Assembly (NCBI RefSeq): GCF_007035645.1
Contig: NZ_AP019632.1
Span: 1,984,001 to 2,048,000, forward strand
Length of the DNA stretch: 64,000 bases
Direction: 5' to 3'
Origin: Enterobacter asburiae
Lineage (GTDB): Bacteria; Pseudomonadota; Gammaproteobacteria; Enterobacterales; Enterobacteriaceae
Below the pieces are notes generated by a model. The model did no database searches, was not told where the DNA came from, and saw only the letters and a list, made by a program, of their open reading frames with translations. This document shows, piece after piece, positions 10,934 through 18,493 of the stretch. Position 1 is the first letter of the stretch. Every line of letters starts with the position of its first letter. The translations under genes were made by a program, and so were the position numbers.

Positions 10934-13900
10934 TCACGCTTTCCTGAGATTGTCGATGAAGCGCGCGATGACGATAAAGAAAACCGGTACGAAGAAAATG
11001 GCGAGAAGCGTACCGCTAATCATGCCGCCAAATACGCCGGTACCGATGGCATGCTGCGTACTGTCGCTCGCACCATTGGCCAGCATCAACGGAACAACCC
11101 CTAAGGTGAAGGCTAACGACGTCATCAGAATAGGGCGCAGGCGCTGGCCGGCGGCATGAATGGTTGCCGCCAGCAGGGGCTGACCCTGGCGATGGAGCTG
11201 CCTCGCAAATTCAACAATCAGAATGGCGTTCTTGGCCGACAGGCCGATAAGCGTAATCAGGCCGACCTTGAAGAAAACGTCATTCGTCATGCCGGCAACG
11301 GACACCGCGATCACCGCGCCGATAAGACCCAGCGGAACGACCAGCATGACCGCAAATGGAATAGACCAGCTCTCATACAGGGCGGCTAGCACCATAAACA
11401 CGACCAGTATCGACAGGACGATAAGGCCCGGAAGCTGAGATTCCGATTTTCTCTCCTGCAATGAACTGCCTGCCCACTCGCCAGCCATGCCCTGAGGTAA
11501 ATCTCTGGACAAACTCTCCATAACCTTCATTGCGGTGCCGCTGGACTCTCCCGGCGCCGCATTTCCGGTAATGCGAATAGCCGAATATCCCTGATAACGC
11601 GTCAACTGCTGGGGCGCAACGTGCCAGGAAAGCGTGGCAAACGTCGATACCGGCACCATCTGTCCCATCCGGTTTTTCACTGATAATGTCAGTATCTGCT
11701 CAGGCTGCATTCGGTAAGGCGCATCGGCCTGAATAATCACCTGCTGGACGCGGCCGTTGTTCGTATAGTCATTGACGTAATTTGAGCCCAGGGTGACGGA
11801 GAGCGTCTGGTTGATTTCATCAAATGCGACGCCCATCGCTTCCGCCTTTTCTCTGTCCACCTGGAGCGCAAGGCTTGTTCCTTCCGGCAGACCGTCTATA
11901 TACACGTCACTCAGTTCAGGGCGCTGGTTGGCCTGCAGGACCAGAGCGTCGGCAGCGCGCTTTAACGCCTCGTAGCCCAGTCCCGCTCTGTCCTGCACGT
12001 ACCAGGTGAAGCCCGACGAGGTGCCCATATCCGAAATGGCCGGCGGGAGCAGGCTCATCGTGACGGCATCAGAGACGTTTGCCATGCTGGCCTGTATCCG
12101 GTCGGCTTCCCCCTGGGCCGTCGAGCCCTGCCGATCTTTCCAGTCCTTCAGCGTGGTGAAGGCCATAGCCGAGTTAGGTCCTGAACCTGAAAATCCAAAC
12201 CCCAGGATCATAATGTTGCTTTCAATATCCGGCCGGGCCGCAATTTCCTCTTCAAATTTTTTAACCACGTTGAGGGTACGCTGCATCGTGGCATCTGAAG
12301 GCAGCTGGATTGAGGACATAAAGTAGCCCTGATCTTCGTCCGGCAGAAAGGACGACGGTAACGAAGACAATCCCAAAAACAGCGCAGCACAAAGCGCAGC
12401 GTACAGGAGCAGCATACGCCCGGTTCGCTTCAGAACGGCACCCAGCCCGGCTTCGTAACTGGCGGTGAGCGAACGAAAGCGCGCGTTAAACCCGACCGCG
12501 AATCTTCCGCCTCCGCTCTTTCCTGGCTTATGCGGCTTGAGTAACGTTGCGCACAGGGCAGGCGTCAGCGTCAGGGCAAGAAACGCGGACAGCAGTATGG
12601 AGACCGCCATGGAAATACAAAATTGTCGGTAGATAATCCCGACGGATCCTTCCGCAAACCCCATGGGGATAAAGACGGCGGTCAGCACCAGCGTGATGCC
12701 AATAATCGCCGGGGTGATTTCCTGCATGGCTTGCCGCGTGGCGTCACGCGGAGACAGGCTTTTTTCCTCCATCAGTCGTTCAACGTTCTCCACGACCACG
12801 ATGGCATCATCAACGATAATCCCTATTGCCAGCACCATGCCGAACATCGTCAGAATATTGATGGAGTAGCCGCTCAATAGCATCACCGTGAAGGTGCCAA
12901 GAAGCGCGACGGGAGCAACAATCGCCGGGATAAGCGTACAGCGTATCTTGTGCAGAAACAGCAGCATAACCAGGAAGACGAGGACCATCGCTTCCACAAA
13001 TGTCTGAACAACTTTCATGATAGAAAGTTTTACAAACGGCGCGGTGTCGAAGGGGATCGTAAATGCCATTCCTTCGGGTAACACCCGGGAAAGTTCGTCG
13101 ATGCGCACCCGTACGCCGGAAGCCGTGCTCATCGCATTCGCGCCAGGCGAGAGCTGAATTGCCGCCGCCGTTGCGGGCACGCCATTTTCACGGATACCAA
13201 AAGCGTAGCTTTGCAGGCCAGATTCAATCCGCGCAATGTCGGACAATTTCAGGCGGGCACCGGATGCGTCAGATTTCAGGGTGATATTCCTGAACGCCTC
13301 AACCGAGGAGAGCTGTCCCTTCACGGTGATGGGATACGTCACCCCTTGTCCTGCAGAGGCTGGCTCATCTCCCGTTTTGCCGGGCGAAACCAGGGCATTT
13401 TGCTGGCCAACGGCGGTAAGAACATCGCTTACCGAAAGCCCGTAGCCGTGGAGCTTCATGGGATCCAACCAGATGCGCAGCGCTTTTTCGCCGCCAAACA
13501 GCTGAACTTTCCCTACGCCGGGCACGCGACGAAGCTCGTCACTGACGTTTCTGGCAAAATAGTCGCTTAAATCGGCTTCCTCAAATTGACCCGTCGCCGA
13601 CTTCAGCCCCACCATCATTAAAAAGCCAGAGTTAGCGGCCTCGACGTTGATGCCGTTTTGCCTTACCGCCTGAGGCAGACGAGGCTCGACGATCTTAATC
13701 TGATTCTGCAGATCCATCTGCGCCAGCTTGATGTCCGTGCCCGGTTTAAAGGTGACGGTAATCGATGCCGAACCGGTTGTGTCACTGGATGATTCAAAGT
13801 AGAGCAAATTATCTACGCCGGAGATTTCGCGCTCGATTAACGATACCACCGACGTGTTCATGATATCGGGGCTGGCCCCGGGGTAACTGACGGAAATAAT

Positions 13901-14029
13901 GATTCCAGGCGGCGCCACCGCCGGATACTGCGCAACCGGCAAACGGGGAATAGACAGGAGCCCTGCCAGAACGATAAAAAGCGCCACTACCCAGGCGAAA
14001 ACGGGGCGTTCGATAAAAAAATGCGGCAT
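10934..14029 (-). CDS. AdeB-like RND (HAE1) multidrug efflux transporter, inner-membrane subunit
   Basis: The 1031-residue proton/drug antiporter of the HAE1-RND family starts FFIERPVFAWVVALF. It has the proton-relay residues of AcrB/AdeB: the DD pair in IGIIVDDAIVVVENVERL (about 406-407), a lysine in GLSAKNAILIVEFA (about 930) and an arginine in RLRPILMTSLAFT. Segments such as VEAANSGFLMMVG, PFDTAPFVKLSIMKVV and FKVGLITLIGLSAKNA follow remembered Acinetobacter AdeB closely. No membrane-fusion protein or outer-membrane channel gene is next to it, so partners such as AcrA-type proteins or TolC would have to come from elsewhere. It starts 4 nt after the upstream six-TM ABC gene, so the two form an operon. 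Substrates cannot be predicted. Confidence 0.9.
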   Translation of the reverse strand: MPHFFIERPVFAWVVALFIVLAGLLSIPRLPVAQYPAVAPPGIIISVSYPGASPDIMNTSVVSLIEREISGVDNLLYFESSSDTTGSASITVTFKPGTDIKLAQMDLQNQIKIVEPRLPQAVRQNGINVEAANSGFLMMVGLKSATGQFEEADLSDYFARNVSDELRRVPGVGKVQLFGGEKALRIWLDPMKLHGYGLSVSDVLTAVGQQNALVSPGKTGDEPASAGQGVTYPITVKGQLSSVEAFRNITLKSDASGARLKLSDIARIESGLQSYAFGIRENGVPATAAAIQLSPGANAMSTASGVRVRIDELSRVLPEGMAFTIPFDTAPFVKLSIMKVVQTFVEAMVLVFLVMLLFLHKIRCTLIPAIVAPVALLGTFTVMLLSGYSINILTMFGMVLAIGIIVDDAIVVVENVERLMEEKSLSPRDATRQAMQEITPAIIGITLVLTAVFIPMGFAEGSVGIIYRQFCISMAVSILLSAFLALTLTPALCATLLKPHKPGKSGGGRFAVGFNARFRSLTASYEAGLGAVLKRTGRMLLLYAALCAALFLGLSSLPSSFLPDEDQGYFMSSIQLPSDATMQRTLNVVKKFEEEIAARPDIESNIMILGFGFSGSGPNSAMAFTTLKDWKDRQGSTAQGEADRIQASMANVSDAVTMSLLPPAISDMGTSSGFTWYVQDRAGLGYEALKRAADALVLQANQRPELSDVYIDGLPEGTSLALQVDREKAEAMGVAFDEINQTLSVTLGSNYVNDYTNNGRVQQVIIQADAPYRMQPEQILTLSVKNRMGQMVPVSTFATLSWHVAPQQLTRYQGYSAIRITGNAAPGESSGTAMKVMESLSRDLPQGMAGEWAGSSLQERKSESQLPGLIVLSILVVFMVLAALYESWSIPFAVMLVVPLGLIGAVIAVSVAGMTNDVFFKVGLITLIGLSAKNAILIVEFARQLHRQGQPLLAATIHAAGQRLRPILMTSLAFTLGVVPLMLANGASDSTQHAIGTGVFGGMISGTLLAIFFVPVFFIVIARFIDNLRKA

Positions 14030-14033
14030 TAAA

Positions 14034-14942
14034 TTAACGTCCGGTTACGTGAATTTCATCATCAGTGGATACGCGCTTGCCGATATCCCTGAGCTGCGAA
14101 AATTTCTCAAGAAGCTGCGGCGCGTCATCGAGGCTCGTCGCGAACATCCACATGTAGGTCATCACCGAGTAAATATGTCCGGCGGTGATGCCGGTTGAGC
14201 GCGTCATCCAGACGATGGTCAGCGTAAAAAGCGCGGCAACAAGCACGCCGACCCACAAATAACCCCACGCCTCGCGGTCAGATAATGCGATACGCAAACG
14301 CGCCAGCGTGGAGTAATGGCGGTGAAGGGTAGCCGTGCCCGCCTTATGGACATAATCCACTTCTTTTTCCAGCCGATTATTCAGGCGCATGAACAGCCAT
14401 TCATTTTTACGGGCATATCCTGAGACAAATCCGAGCAGGATAAATACAATCGCAAAGCACATGACGCCGGCCCAAAATTCAATAAACAGCAACATGATTG
14501 CGGCACCAAAAAGTGAGCTCAGCGAGGTAATAAGCAGGGGAAGGTGCATTTCAAAGAAATCCACATATTCGCGCGAGAGCGTTACCCTGGCGGCGATCGC
14601 CGAATGGTTAAGCTGATATTTGCGCTGTGCCAGGACGACGGAAACCGCGAGTCCGGCATAAATGCGTGCAAACGTGCGCGTGTCTACGCTTCGTCTGGCC
14701 GCACCGATGAACCACATGCAAAGCACCATCAGGCCATACAGCGCGGCGTTAAGCGTTTCACCGGCGAGGATGGCATTTATCGCGATGCCAGCCAGAACGG
14801 GATAAAGTAAAAACGTCACGTTTTCGGCCACCACCAGGAAAAAAGTGACAACCAGTTTTTTCCGGTGCCGTATCGCGAGTTTTTTTAGCGAGTGCATCAC
14901 TCCGGCAGGTTCAGAAGAACGAAGATTATTACGGTTCATCAT
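14034..14942 (-). CDS. ABC-transporter six-transmembrane domain protein without ATPase domain
   Basis: The 302-residue hydrophobic protein resembles the exporter-type ABC membrane domain (ABC_membrane_3-like). Hydrophobic segments lie at about residues 30-50, 65-85, 135-155, 160-180, 225-245 and 255-275. No Walker A, signature or Walker B follows; the protein ends soon after the last helix, and no ABC ATPase gene is adjacent. It is the first gene of an operon with the RND pump (4-nt gap). Start codons occur at 14942 and 14939 without a strong Shine-Dalgarno; Met at 14897 is an alternative. Its role is unknown: it could be a pump accessory, or a half-transporter using a distant ATPase. Confidence 0.75.
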   Translation of the reverse strand: MMNRNNLRSSEPAGVMHSLKKLAIRHRKKLVVTFFLVVAENVTFLLYPVLAGIAINAILAGETLNAALYGLMVLCMWFIGAARRSVDTRTFARIYAGLAVSVVLAQRKYQLNHSAIAARVTLSREYVDFFEMHLPLLITSLSSLFGAAIMLLFIEFWAGVMCFAIVFILLGFVSGYARKNEWLFMRLNNRLEKEVDYVHKAGTATLHRHYSTLARLRIALSDREAWGYLWVGVLVAALFTLTIVWMTRSTGITAGHIYSVMTYMWMFATSLDDAPQLLEKFSQLRDIGKRVSTDDEIHVTGR

Positions 14943-15040
14943 TATGGATAAGTTTTATCAGATTCTTAGGTGAGTTATTTTTGTGCAAAATAGCGTGAGG
15001 GAGAGTCTACCGCGCGCCTGTTTAGCGGAAATGGGCGGTT

Positions 15041-15058
15041 TGTGGAGGCTATGTGGAG
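15041..15058. promoter_or_regulatory. AdeR-like tandem direct repeat upstream of the six-TM/RND operon
   Basis: TGTGGAGGCTATGTGGAG contains two exact TGTGGAG copies, 11 bp apart. It lies 98 nt upstream of the six-TM gene and just after the stop of the small membrane gene. As recalled, AdeR of Acinetobacter binds a tandem AAGTGTGGAG with the same 11-bp period, so this is proposed as the binding site of the adjacent AdeR-like regulator. Confidence 0.6.
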
Positions 15059-15065
15059 CAACGGC

Positions 15066-15476
15066 TCAAATCATTCTCATAATAAGGTACAGCGGGGCTC
15101 CACCAAAAAAAATGATCAAATAACACTCGTAGTAAAAGACCAGATCCTCGATATCGGGCATCGCGTTTAACAACACGGTGAACGTAATAATGAGATAAAC
15201 AAAAATCACCAACAGCCAGAAGGCGACGACGAGTAGCTCAGTCAACGCGCCGGCTTTATTCTGGATTATCAGAGAGACAACCGACAATGCGATGCAGCCA
15301 TAGATAATGGGTGAAGAGAGCAGCGTTGAGGCGACTTTTTCATCCATTTTGTGTACCAGCATCAGCCAGATATAAAGTAATCCCCAGGACAGCAGCAGGA
15401 ACAGGGAATATAAGCCCAGTTTTTTAGGAGAGAAATATTTAGAAAGTTCCATGTTCATTATTTCAGCCAACTTCAT
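15066..15476 (-). CDS. hypothetical four-TM membrane protein
   Basis: I do not recognise this 136-residue protein. It has a short cytosolic N-terminus (MKLAEIMNMELSKYFSPKK), then four hydrophobic segments at about residues 20-42, 55-72, 78-103 and 115-135, and a very short C-terminus. It is visibly richer in A+T than its neighbours, which fits recent acquisition. It sits between the pump operon (same strand, 123 nt downstream) and the divergent two-component system. A near copy of the AdeR-like repeat lies about 102 nt upstream of its start, so it is probably part of the same regulon. Confidence 0.6.
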   Translation of the reverse strand: MKLAEIMNMELSKYFSPKKLGLYSLFLLLSWGLLYIWLMLVHKMDEKVASTLLSSPIIYGCIALSVVSLIIQNKAGALTELLVVAFWLLVIFVYLIITFTVLLNAMPDIEDLVFYYECYLIIFFGGAPLYLIMRMI

Positions 15477-15578
15477 AAAATCTTTAAGTAACAGGGATAA
15501 TGTGCAACGCTAAATGTAAAAAGAGTTTTGTCTCAATAGCGATTTTGAACGGGCATTGTCGAGTCATTATTGACGGAA

Positions 15579-15596
15579 TGTGTAGGCTGTATGGAG
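15579..15596. promoter_or_regulatory. second AdeR-like repeat between the small membrane gene and the two-component system
   Basis: TGTGTAGGCTGTATGGAG matches the site at 15041-15058 in 15 of 18 positions, in the same orientation. It lies 102 nt upstream of the small membrane gene and 127 nt upstream of the response regulator. A third partial match, GGAGGCTGTGT, occurs at 15654-15664. The site could serve autoregulation or the divergent gene. Confidence 0.5.
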
Positions 15597-15723
15597 AAAT
15601 AACCGGGCATTTAAATCAACCGGGAAATTTTCGTGACCACGGCACTTTTTCGCGGAGGCTGTGTCTTATTGTGCTAAAGATATCTAATAGCGAGCTCAAA
15701 GGGATTTCACCCGCGGAGATAAA

Positions 15724-16428
15724 ATGCACAAAAATACGCTGATCCTTGTTGTTGAAGATGAAGACGAAATCGCCGATATACTGATGAGCTACCTGGAGCG
15801 TTCGGGAATGAAAACGCTCCGAGCCAGGCAGGGCGAACAGGCCATAGCGCTCGATCGCCTCCATAAACCGGATCTCATATTGCTGGACATTCACCTGCCC
15901 GTATGTGACGGCTGGAGCGTACTTACCACGCTTCGTCAGGAAAGTGCTGTCCCCGTCATTATGGTTTCCGCTCTCGATCAGGATGTCGATAAGCTCATGG
16001 GGCTGAGGCTGGGCGCGGATGATTACGTGATCAAACCTTTCAACCCTTCTGAAGTTGTCGCCCGGGTTGAGGCGGTGCTGCGCAGGACAAAACCCGCGCT
16101 TCAGCAGGCGGGTTCCCAGCCGCTCAGAACGCCCTTTATTACGGTCTATCCGGATGACTTCTACGTGGAAGTCACCGTGGGCGCAGAGGTTGTCTCCCCG
16201 GTATTAACGACGACCGAATTTAAATTGCTCACATACCTGGTGAGATATCCGCGAAAGGTCTGCTCCCGCGAAGAGCTGCTCAACGCGTGTCTGCCGGAAG
16301 GGGATACGCTCGACAGAACGGTCGACAGCCATATGAGCAAGTTGCGTAAAAAACTGGAGCTTGCCGGCCTCTATGGTGTTCCCGAGAGCATCAGAGGCAT
16401 GGGCTACCGGCTTGGGGAAAAGAAATGA
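15724..16428 (+). CDS. OmpR-family response regulator, AdeR-like
   Basis: The 234-residue regulator has a receiver domain (about residues 5-118) with acidic pocket E11-D12, phospho-acceptor D55 in LLDIHLP and K104 in VIKPFNP. A winged-helix DNA-binding domain follows (about 138-231), with RTVDSHMSKLRKKLE as the recognition segment. Several stretches (LVVEDEDEIADIL, DRTVDSHMSKLRKKLE) resemble AdeR of Acinetobacter. The Shine-Dalgarno GGAGATAAA precedes the ATG. It overlaps the kinase gene by ATGA. The likely role is phosphorylation-dependent control of the neighbouring six-TM/RND operon via the TGTGGAG repeats. BaeR-like control is an alternative. Confidence 0.85.
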   Translation: MHKNTLILVVEDEDEIADILMSYLERSGMKTLRARQGEQAIALDRLHKPDLILLDIHLPVCDGWSVLTTLRQESAVPVIMVSALDQDVDKLMGLRLGADDYVIKPFNPSEVVARVEAVLRRTKPALQQAGSQPLRTPFITVYPDDFYVEVTVGAEVVSPVLTTTEFKLLTYLVRYPRKVCSREELLNACLPEGDTLDRTVDSHMSKLRKKLELAGLYGVPESIRGMGYRLGEKK

Positions 16429-17489
16429 ACAAAGAGTCTGTTCTGAGCCGTCAGATCTTAACGTATATGCTGTTGCTGACGTTTACGATCATTGCCATCG
16501 CCATACTCGGCTCCTGGTTTTTTTACTCCTTTATTCTGGATCAACTCCCGGGCGGCCCTGCTGCGGGCGATGACGAGCAGATGACGATGTGGGACTGGGT
16601 ATGGATTGGGACCGCGACTACGATCAGTATGATTATTGCCCTCTTTTTCACGGTCAAACTGTCATCGCGGATCCTCACCCCGCTAAACGCGGTAGCGTCC
16701 AGCCTGAAAAAGATTTCTCAGGGCGATCTGGATGCCCGGGCATTCTGCGCCAGTTCCCGGCTGGGTGAGATCAATCACCTGGTGACGGATTTCAATGAAA
16801 TGGCGGAAAAATTACAGACGCTGGATATTCAGAGAAAATCCTGGAATGCCGCTATTGCGCATGAGCTGAGAACCCCGGTCACGATCTTACGCGGACGGCT
16901 TCAGGGGTTGGTTGACGGCGTTTTTACCCCGGATCCGGTGCTGTTTAATAATCTTCTCAAACAGACGGAAGGGTTAACCCGCCTGATTGAAGATCTCCGG
17001 GTTATCAGTTCGGATGGCGGGGCGGGATACACGTTATGCCAGTCAAGAACGGATCTAAAAGGGACAATACAGAACGCACTCGATACGTTCATGCCCGAGT
17101 TCAGCCGTAAGGCTTTTACCGTCAATACAGACCTGAGGGAGCAGCAGTGCGTATTCGATCCATTGCGCATCAATCAGTGTTTGACCGTTTTATTTGATAA
17201 TGCCTTACACTATTCAACCTCGCGCACGCTCATCGTGAAAAATGGCGTTTCTGATAAAGGCAATTTTATCCTTATTCAGGACGGGGGACCGGGCATCCCC
17301 AGAGAGTTTCATGATTTCCTGTTTCAGCCCTTTCAGCGCGATAATGGCGCCAGACATGTGAACCCGGAAGGCTGTGGTTTGGGCTTGTCGGTGGTAAAAG
17401 CCATCATGCTGGCTCATGGTGGCGATGTTACCTATACCTTATCGACGCAAAACCACTCGATATTTAAACTCACCTGGCCCGACTCGTGA
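16425..17489 (+). CDS. sensor histidine kinase, AdeS-like
   Basis: The 354-residue inner-membrane kinase has TM1 at about residues 12-36, a short periplasmic loop (about 37-58), TM2 at about 59-80, a HAMP linker (about 80-135), a dimerisation/phospho-acceptor helix with H146 in AIAHELRTPVTILRG, and an ATPase domain with N-box NQCLTVLFDNALHYS and G-boxes QDGGPGIP and GCGLGLSVVKAI. The small periplasmic loop suggests sensing in or near the membrane. Its start overlaps the regulator stop (ATGA), so the pair is one operon. Its 3' end overlaps the convergent ATP-grasp gene by 20 bases. Confidence 0.87.
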   Translation: MNKESVLSRQILTYMLLLTFTIIAIAILGSWFFYSFILDQLPGGPAAGDDEQMTMWDWVWIGTATTISMIIALFFTVKLSSRILTPLNAVASSLKKISQGDLDARAFCASSRLGEINHLVTDFNEMAEKLQTLDIQRKSWNAAIAHELRTPVTILRGRLQGLVDGVFTPDPVLFNNLLKQTEGLTRLIEDLRVISSDGGAGYTLCQSRTDLKGTIQNALDTFMPEFSRKAFTVNTDLREQQCVFDPLRINQCLTVLFDNALHYSTSRTLIVKNGVSDKGNFILIQDGGPGIPREFHDFLFQPFQRDNGARHVNPEGCGLGLSVVKAIMLAHGGDVTYTLSTQNHSIFKLTWPDS

Positions 17490-18411
17490 GCTTCAGCGGC
17501 AGGTCAAATGTGCCTGCCGGCGATAAATGCCATATTTTTCCTAACTTAGCATCCCACTCCTGCGGGGTAATCGTCAGCTTACCGCGTCTCGGGCTTAAGG
17601 TTATTTCGCTGAAATAGATTTCATCTTTTTTTAGCATAAGGTCAACGCGGCAGTAGTCAATTCCATCCGCCAGCTCCTGGGAGGCCAACAAAGCCTGGCG
17701 GAATAAGAGCGGTTCGCATGGTTCTGCTGAAGTATTTGGATATTCCATCCGGAAGGGTTGTAAGTTCCAGTACCTGTCATAAACGTTGATAAACCCTTTG
17801 CCGTTATCATCCGTAAAATCCGCTTCTACATAGTGGGCAACGCCGTGAAAACAATGGATCCTCAGCATTTCGGGCGTTGTATTCCTGTCAGCGTCGTCGA
17901 AGAGATCGATAAACGGCTCGCAAAGTATACTCGGCGTAATGTTTTTGTACTGCCATTCGCGCGTGGTGTAGTAAAGATTTTTCTTTAACGCGAGGCTCAG
18001 CTTTTTACACGCTTCTTTTTCATTAAATTGCGCTTTGTTTGTACATATTATTGTGCTGCCGCTGTCATGGTTGCACTTAAGGACGAATTTGTCAGGAAGA
18101 ACTGAAAAATCAATCTGCGACGGCCGGGTATAAACGCCAATTAATGGCACCGTTTTCACGCGCGTTGTTCTGGAGGAAACGTATGCCCGAACGGCGAGTT
18201 TATCGGCAAGCATCGTGTAGAAGTTATTATGGTCATAGACCAGCCGATGGCATATTTTTTCACTCAACGTCGTGGGCGAGTTAATGTCAGGGGTTTCCCC
18301 AGTTGTTTTCTTAAGCCTCACGGTATGAAAATGCAGGTCCGTCATTAAAAATGAGCGGCATTTTCTGATGAGATACTCTGTGTATTTTAAAACGTAAGTG
18401 GCGGTGTTCAT
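17470..18411 (-). CDS. TupA-like ATP-grasp protein
   Basis: The 313-residue protein resembles the ATP-grasp family typified by TupA (teichuronopeptide synthesis), often annotated as glycosyltransferase in polysaccharide loci. Visible marks are LSEKICHRLVYDHNNFYTMLADKL near residues 48-72, FVLKCNHDSGST (about 109-120, nucleotide-binding lysine), EPFIDL and the metal-binding end YCRVDLML...IYFSEITLSPRRG (about 253-280). Such proteins ligate amino acids to sugars or acids in envelope polymers; the substrate here is unknown. A strong Shine-Dalgarno (GGAGGAGAAG) precedes the ATG at 18411. It is A+T-richer than the flanking core genes and overlaps the kinase gene tail to tail. Confidence 0.7.
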   Translation of the reverse strand: MNTATYVLKYTEYLIRKCRSFLMTDLHFHTVRLKKTTGETPDINSPTTLSEKICHRLVYDHNNFYTMLADKLAVRAYVSSRTTRVKTVPLIGVYTRPSQIDFSVLPDKFVLKCNHDSGSTIICTNKAQFNEKEACKKLSLALKKNLYYTTREWQYKNITPSILCEPFIDLFDDADRNTTPEMLRIHCFHGVAHYVEADFTDDNGKGFINVYDRYWNLQPFRMEYPNTSAEPCEPLLFRQALLASQELADGIDYCRVDLMLKKDEIYFSEITLSPRRGKLTITPQEWDAKLGKIWHLSPAGTFDLPLKLTSRAR

Positions 18412-18493
18412 TTCTTCTCCTCCGTAATGTCCGGATATTCTGGAGAAGAACTGTTGATTGATATTGCTTAAAATATGGAGCAGGGATGGAGAC

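Follow-up and report, generated by a model that had tools for sequence, protein, structure and literature searches.

Two direct repeats lie on either side of a small membrane protein gene in the 64,000-nucleotide stretch of Enterobacter asburiae DNA analyzed here (the window), and their position beside a two-component system raises the question of whether its response regulator acts through them and on which genes. The repeats are TGTGGAGGCTATGTGGAG (positions 15041 to 15058) and TGTGTAGGCTGTATGGAG (15579 to 15596), both as read on the plus strand, with 15 of 18 positions identical and three differing. An earlier note assigned them to a regulon of the adjacent regulator, and this assignment is supported by their co-occurrence with the regulator gene crrA, by the AdeR-type motif, and by published binding in Enterobacter cloacae. 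The repeats are very probably the promoter-distal halves of two CrrA operators that, with a third at 18452 to 18491, make up one local regulon. Its predicted units are crrC, an ABC-membrane gene with kexD, and a TupA-like gene. The earlier finding was sound but understated, covering two of the three operators, each longer than noticed. Four points are corrected here: the operators are longer, there is a third, the partial copy at 15654 is rejected as an operator by the model, and the spacing between repeats and genes is incidental.

The crrAB-crrC-kexD locus of Enterobacter

The small membrane gene (15066 to 15476, minus strand; 136 amino acids as listed) matches the CrrC family (NCBIfam NF051485.1) with 171.5 bits, above the cut-off of 150. 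The profile alignment begins at residue 23, so that the true start is uncertain and may lie at 15458 or 15452; most relatives beyond the five closest loci align to CrrC from residue 5 or later. An ABC transporter transmembrane-domain gene (14034 to 14942; Pfam PF13748, 259.5 bits) and a kexD/adeB-like gene for an RND permease (10934 to 14029) are located on the same strand, in the positions of ECL_01759 and ECL_01758, respectively. The permease gene is adjacent without a fusion-protein gene and is preceded by crrC and the ABC-membrane gene. All three genes lie ahead of crrA (15724 to 16428, plus strand) on the opposite strand.

crrA encodes an AdeR-like response regulator of the OmpR family. 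Its best NCBIfam family is AdeR at 261.7 bits, below the cut-off of 340 for the equivalog NF012227.0, and by this profile CrrA is a relative of AdeR, not AdeR itself. The best PDB matches are AdeR structures, and further families are CreB (174.1 bits) and, in third place, BaeR (171.6 bits). The histidine kinase gene crrB (16425 to 17489, plus strand), with HAMP, HisKA, and HATPase_c domains, is AdeS-like (302.1 bits; NCBIfam cut-off, 500), with BaeS as second-best family. Beyond crrB, a minus-strand gene (17470 to 18411; Pfam PF14305, 129.9 bits) encodes a TupA-like ATP-grasp protein, which is taken to be the counterpart of the neighbor called “glycosyltransferase” in Klebsiella pneumoniae (PMC6026146; published papers are referred to throughout by their available excerpts).

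The locus of K. pneumoniae ATCC 13883 (L012), an unannotated record in which names were placed by gene order, has the same order as CrrAB-CrrC-KexD of this species and carries all three operators. Protein identities range from 45 to 87%: 78% for the regulator, 70% for the kinase, 45% for CrrC, 74% for the ABC protein, 87% for the RND permease (part-length, 291 residues), and 63% for the TupA-like protein. This gene order and these identities, together with the CrrC score, identify the locus as the Enterobacter crrAB-crrC-kexD locus of the polymyxin and odilorhabdin response. Mutations in CrrB lead to high-level resistance to polymyxins and odilorhabdins.

Predicted operators and their promoters

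Alignment of six close loci revealed two conserved blocks, each consisting of four half-sites at an 11-bp period in gene direction. The repeats noted first are half-sites 1 and 2 and thus cover only the half of each 40-bp operator that is farther from the promoter. The inner half-sites show more degeneracy, and half-site 3 is weakly conserved. Read in gene direction, the plan is CTCCAYA-N4-CTCCAYA-N4-nnnCAww-N4-nTCAAYA, followed by 9 nt to the −10 hexamer.

All three predicted operators are on the minus strand. Operator A, at the crrC promoter (15557 to 15596), contains the repeat at 15579 and has the half-sites CTCCATA (15590 to 15596), CTACACA (15579 to 15585), GTCAATA (15568 to 15574), and CTCGACA (15557 to 15563). 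Operator B, at the promoter of the ABC-membrane gene and kexD (15019 to 15058), contains the repeat at 15041 and has the half-sites CTCCACA (15052 to 15058), CTCCACA (15041 to 15047), GCCCATT (15030 to 15036), and CTAAACA (15019 to 15025). Operator C, which was absent from the earlier note, is placed at the promoter of the TupA-like gene (18452 to 18491), with the half-sites CTCCATC (18485 to 18491), CTCCATA (18474 to 18480), AAGCAAT (18463 to 18469), and ATCAACA (18452 to 18458). CTCCAY twice at 11 bp fits sites B and C, and site A has CTACAC in half-site 2. The position of operator C suggests that the TupA-like gene is a direct target.

Predicted −10 hexamers follow the operators after 9 nt on the same strand: CAAAAT for crrC (15542 to 15547), TAGACT for the ABC-membrane gene/kexD unit (15004 to 15009), and CAGAAT for the TupA-like gene (18437 to 18442). 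No good −35 element was found at these operator-linked promoters. Of 71 sites, all placed by the 40-bp operator alone, 68 carry the −10 letters A (column 51) and T (column 55), so that A51 and T55 played no part in placement. The three sites without them are rows dropped for register (site A of locus L052 and site C of L052 and L027), and L099 and L100 show a poorer −10 fit at site A. The distances from the repeats to the ORF starts (98 nt for the start at 14942 and 102 nt for that at 15476), previously offered as evidence, are correct, but their near-equality has little weight because the crrC start is uncertain. The steadier distance is that from operator to −10, and the 98/102-nt spacing is incidental rather than a conserved feature.

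A first matrix was made from 11 40-mers, which were A and B sites taken from six loci (the window and L003 to L007). Run on 24 other enterobacterial loci, this matrix of A and B sites located both in the majority of them and repeatedly picked up a third site, operator C, at about 2.7 kb downstream from the start of crrA. Three loci without crrC (L014, L016, and L025) had the third site only, and L028 and L029 had weak matches only, at the places of A and B. A hold-out matrix of 48 unique sites, from which the window and L003 to L007 were left out, ranked the three operators first in the 64-kb window (47.6 for 15541 to 15596, 46.0 for 18436 to 18491, and 29.6 for 15003 to 15058), the next score being 4.8. 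The three operators were also on top in L088 and L099 to L102, loci of the genus that contributed no training sites, with scores of 34.7 to 58.0 and next-best scores of 21.5 in L088 and ≤7.2 in L099 to L102.

A third partial copy of the repeat, GGAGGCTGTGT, is indeed located in the crrA upstream region (15654 to 15664, plus strand), and the region around it is conserved in six close loci. Its candidacy as an operator was rejected: it gave no match with the site model described below and fell outside the six best matches of the hold-out matrix in the window.

Distribution of the sites and alternative readings

Sites were counted in the window plus 29 enterobacterial loci. All 25 crrC-bearing loci have site A (the L052 copy, out of register, was left out of the profile), and site C was placed in 26 loci (the copies of L027 and L052, out of register, were left out). 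Site B is present in 20 of the 25 crrC-bearing loci, including every one of the 13 that have the ABC gene; the loci without it (L004, L020, L024, L027, and L052) all lack that gene, and kexD starts about 40 to 205 bp behind crrC in the four of them that could be measured. Three further records (L091, L103, and L104) are the same as L004, L028, and L016 and are not independent.

Individual loci depart from the common arrangement. In L004, which lacks both the ABC-membrane gene and operator B, kexD follows crrC at a distance of about 40 bp, and two units are naturally fused. L016 (Citrobacter freundii) has no crrC match, an RND permease gene that precedes crrA on the strand of crrA itself, and operator C only. 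The crr operators of L012 (Klebsiella), L013 (Mangrovibacter), and L015 (Citrobacter) are nearly identical, a hint that the locus has been transferred.

In E. cloacae ATCC 13047, the regulator AdeR_Ec (ECL_01761), the ortholog of CrrA, binds a 539-bp fragment before its own gene, in the same intergenic region upstream of ECL_01760, with a motif 159 bp upstream of ECL_01761 (PMC11892822). Operator A of L099 ends at the same distance of 159 bp before crrA (2042 to 2202), and the published motif is therefore most likely site A. The stated intergenic length of 539 bp disagrees with L099, in which the start of the crrC match is about 300 bp away from crrA. The available text of that study describes a single direct-repeat motif, whereas the locus analyzed here has three sites, each with four half-sites in register with a −10 hexamer. 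Furthermore, ECL_01761 controls ECL_01758 and ECL_01760 (PMC9664853), and reverse transcription-PCR (RT-PCR) placed crrC, the ABC gene, and kexD on one E. cloacae transcript (PMC11892822). Site B may consequently be an internal or secondary promoter.

The single transcript would also fit a system in which operator A alone is important, the other two being relics or weak sites, and kexD is expressed only by read-through from crrC. The lack of site B in five of 25 loci points in the same direction, as does the K. pneumoniae crrB mutant without colistin, in which crrC rose >256-fold and the pump and glycosyltransferase genes rose 2- to 4-fold, like the arn genes (PMC6026146). Nevertheless, such a restricted role is unlikely: B and C retain the four-repeat plan with its −10 hexamer across genera, B accompanies the ABC gene wherever that gene is found, and C serves a gene outside the crrC transcript whose K. 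pneumoniae counterpart rose about 256-fold in the mutant with colistin (PMC6026146). In the available text of the same paper, crrC, the “glycosyltransferase,” and the efflux pump all increase in the crrB mutant, and these genes correspond to the three units that carry operators here.

The preferred reading, a three-unit CrrA regulon, was examined at the genome level with a sequence-only site model built from 65 unique sites. In the whole genome (4,770,723 bases; 150 of 620 first-look candidates scored) it gave three matches at an E value of ≤10, all at the locus; the window's own sites are in the model, and the informative part of the scan is therefore the absence of further matches. The pattern TGTGNAGNNTRTRTGGAG occurs twice in the genome, exactly at the two repeats from which it was itself derived, and the reversed-pattern control occurs once. 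The shorter core CTCCAY-N5-CTCCAY is found at three further places, one of them inside a 467-amino-acid kinase-like ORF, and none matches the full model. In this genome, CTCCATGATTTCTCCAT (L113:1501-1517; G000 C1:2741846) lies at the 5′ end of a 112-amino-acid ORF and is not a full-model match.

Conservation of the sites with the two-component system, a further check proposed by the earlier note, holds in the genomes of the genus that were examined. Among 24 genomes, including that of the window, 14 have crrA; matches at E ≤ 0.1 occur in exactly these 14 and in none of the other 10 (140 candidates scored per genome). Twelve crrA-bearing genomes have three matches, one has two, and one has four. 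At least seven of the 14 (G004, G010, G013, G014, G018, G019, and G023) are outside the model, as judged by crrA identities not shared by any training locus of the genus, and the rest include training records, such as G021, which is L004. Co-occurrence follows the whole locus and therefore does not by itself single out CrrA. The fourth match in G004 (C2:1646900; E = 0.0103) is weak, with no downstream same-strand ORF among those listed.

In 16 genomes of other families, no crrA was detected at E ≤ 1e−50, and four of them show weak matches only (E of 0.021 or worse). Across 295 genomes of the same family (≤19 candidates scored per genome, strict filters), 10 have crrA at ≥69% identity and all 10 have matches at E ≤ 1e−3, a count that is largely circular because several of the 10 are training records. 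The site model fails to detect the majority of the family's AdeR-like loci that are more distant: only one of seven genomes with an AdeR-like regulator at 50 to 59% identity has a match at E ≤ 0.01, and the other six have none. Thirteen other family genomes have a match at E ≤ 0.01, with E values of 0.003 to 0.01. Two of the 285 genomes without such a crrA gave matches at E ≤ 1e−3. In one, of another genus (G209; L090:6212-6266), an AdeRS-like locus has a four-repeat operator before a 370-amino-acid ORF, by position an adaptor gene, and an RND gene. In the other (G117; L089:4587-4629; C4:133586-133628; E = 2.4e−4), the match precedes the gene for a small exported protein of 165 amino acids. 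This protein resembles Spy, which is linked to BaeR, and the match may be a BaeR-type site.

The main rival regulator is BaeR, because its box shares CTCCAT with the sites described here: the sites could belong to, or be shared with, this envelope-stress regulator, which would place the locus in the Bae response. The E. coli BaeR box, TTTTTCTCCATDATTGGC, contains CTCCAT (PMC3915751), BaeR and BaeS rank third and second among the families of the regulator and kinase, respectively, and G117 supplies one of the two family matches outside crrA genomes. However, the box in the available text is not a tandem of four, and with ≤3 mismatches it has 15 genome hits (nine for the reversed control), none of them at the three sites or among the site-model matches. 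AdeR also outscores BaeR by 90 bits for the regulator. A BaeR assignment is thus highly improbable. Chance or low-information similarity, which the three further genomic places of the core might suggest, is scarcely credible given the hold-out ranking, the co-occurrence in the genus, and the lack of any further full-model match.

A possible shared operator plan in the AdeR family

The earlier note named an AdeR operator with the same 11-bp period, and the published operator is such a tandem, AAGTGTGGAG (PMC9426577, PMC10052836). The repeats of the window are likewise a TGTGGAG-like tandem with an 11-bp period between regulator and target. In the sequence given in these papers, the Acinetobacter baumannii AdeR operator, AAGTGTGGAGNAAGTGTGGAG, has the reverse complement CTCCACA-N4-CTCCACA, equal to half-sites 1 and 2, and it lies in a similar divergent arrangement of regulator and pump genes; it is described as two repeats, compared with four half-sites in the CrrA operators. 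The DzrR operator of Dickeya oryzae, CGGTTCTCCATCATATCTCCATATT, reads CTCCATC-N4-CTCCATA, both CTCCAY at an 11-bp period (PMC10052836). Its DNase footprint extends over only 25 bp and covers two repeats. The authors did not find the AdeR repeat at the DzrR site and, in the text available, proposed at least two binding groups (PMC10052836). In addition, AdeR homologs cross-bind and substitute for each other (PMC11892822, 2025).

AdeR-like loci of distant bacteria, including Azospirillum, Rhizobium, Trinickia, Pelomonas, and Pseudomonas, contributed no training sites. In 14 of 18 such loci, some of them near-identical, the top match across the entire locus fell ≤300 bp upstream of the regulator, the exceptions being L030, L035, L041, and L048; L033 and L046, which lack upstream sequence, were left out. 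When half-sites 1 and 2 served as anchor, 20 of 24 distant loci passed (L035, L048, L094, and L097 failed), or 15 after removal of near-identical ones. In these 15 anchored sequences, the CTCCAY values peaked at +22 (4.00 of 6) and +33 (3.93), other unanchored offsets giving 1.1 to 2.9, and the TATAAT value was 2.87 at +49, surpassed at a single offset, +14, which is within the anchor. As far as sequence comparison goes, the array of four repeats with its register therefore appears to be a property of the AdeR family rather than of Enterobacter alone. AdeR and CrrA have in common RTVDSH-SKLRKKLE, which we take to be the recognition helix.

A structural parallel is the pho box of PhoB, whose 11-bp direct repeats end about 10 bp before the −10 element and stand in for the −35. 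It resembles the CrrA operator in repeat period and −10 placement, and its sequence and regulator differ. This geometry and the PhoB parallel suggest that two tandem dimers activate transcription in a class II-type manner. CrrB, perhaps together with other kinases, would respond to membrane-active peptides and phosphorylate CrrA; two CrrA dimers would then bind along the four repeats, with the inner pair covering the −35 position, and would bring in RNA polymerase in the manner of PhoB on its pho box. Binding of CrrA to B and C and occupancy by two dimers are what we infer from the site sequences. In the published excerpts, the kinase has a limited role in E. cloacae colistin resistance and another kinase is proposed (PMC9664853), and DzrR activity is likely independent of phosphorylation (PMC10052836).

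We incline, with modest confidence, to a wider proposal in which AdeR, DzrR, and CrrA share one operator code. The four-repeat array at a fixed distance from the −10 would be family-wide, serving with two dimers as the activation platform, and the division between AdeR and DzrR sites would largely reflect reading of opposite strands. The CrrA regulon would then comprise exactly three local units, with the TupA-like gene as a direct target.

In the accessible literature searched, which included PMC9403492, no operator was found for Klebsiella CrrA, and one site has been described for Enterobacter. Site A is thus known; sites B and C and the plan shared by all three seem not to have been reported in that literature. 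The repeats are very probably control sites of a locus for defence against peptide antibiotics, a result that mostly extends published knowledge. The defined site list provides a candidate direct regulon of three units, with no others in the genome by the scan, and it would explain the joint response of crrC, kexD, and the “glycosyltransferase” gene. It also suggests that the wider effects on lipopolysaccharide and lipids (arn and pagP) are indirect. For the family, the binding sites of AdeR, DzrR, and CrrA would fall under one description.
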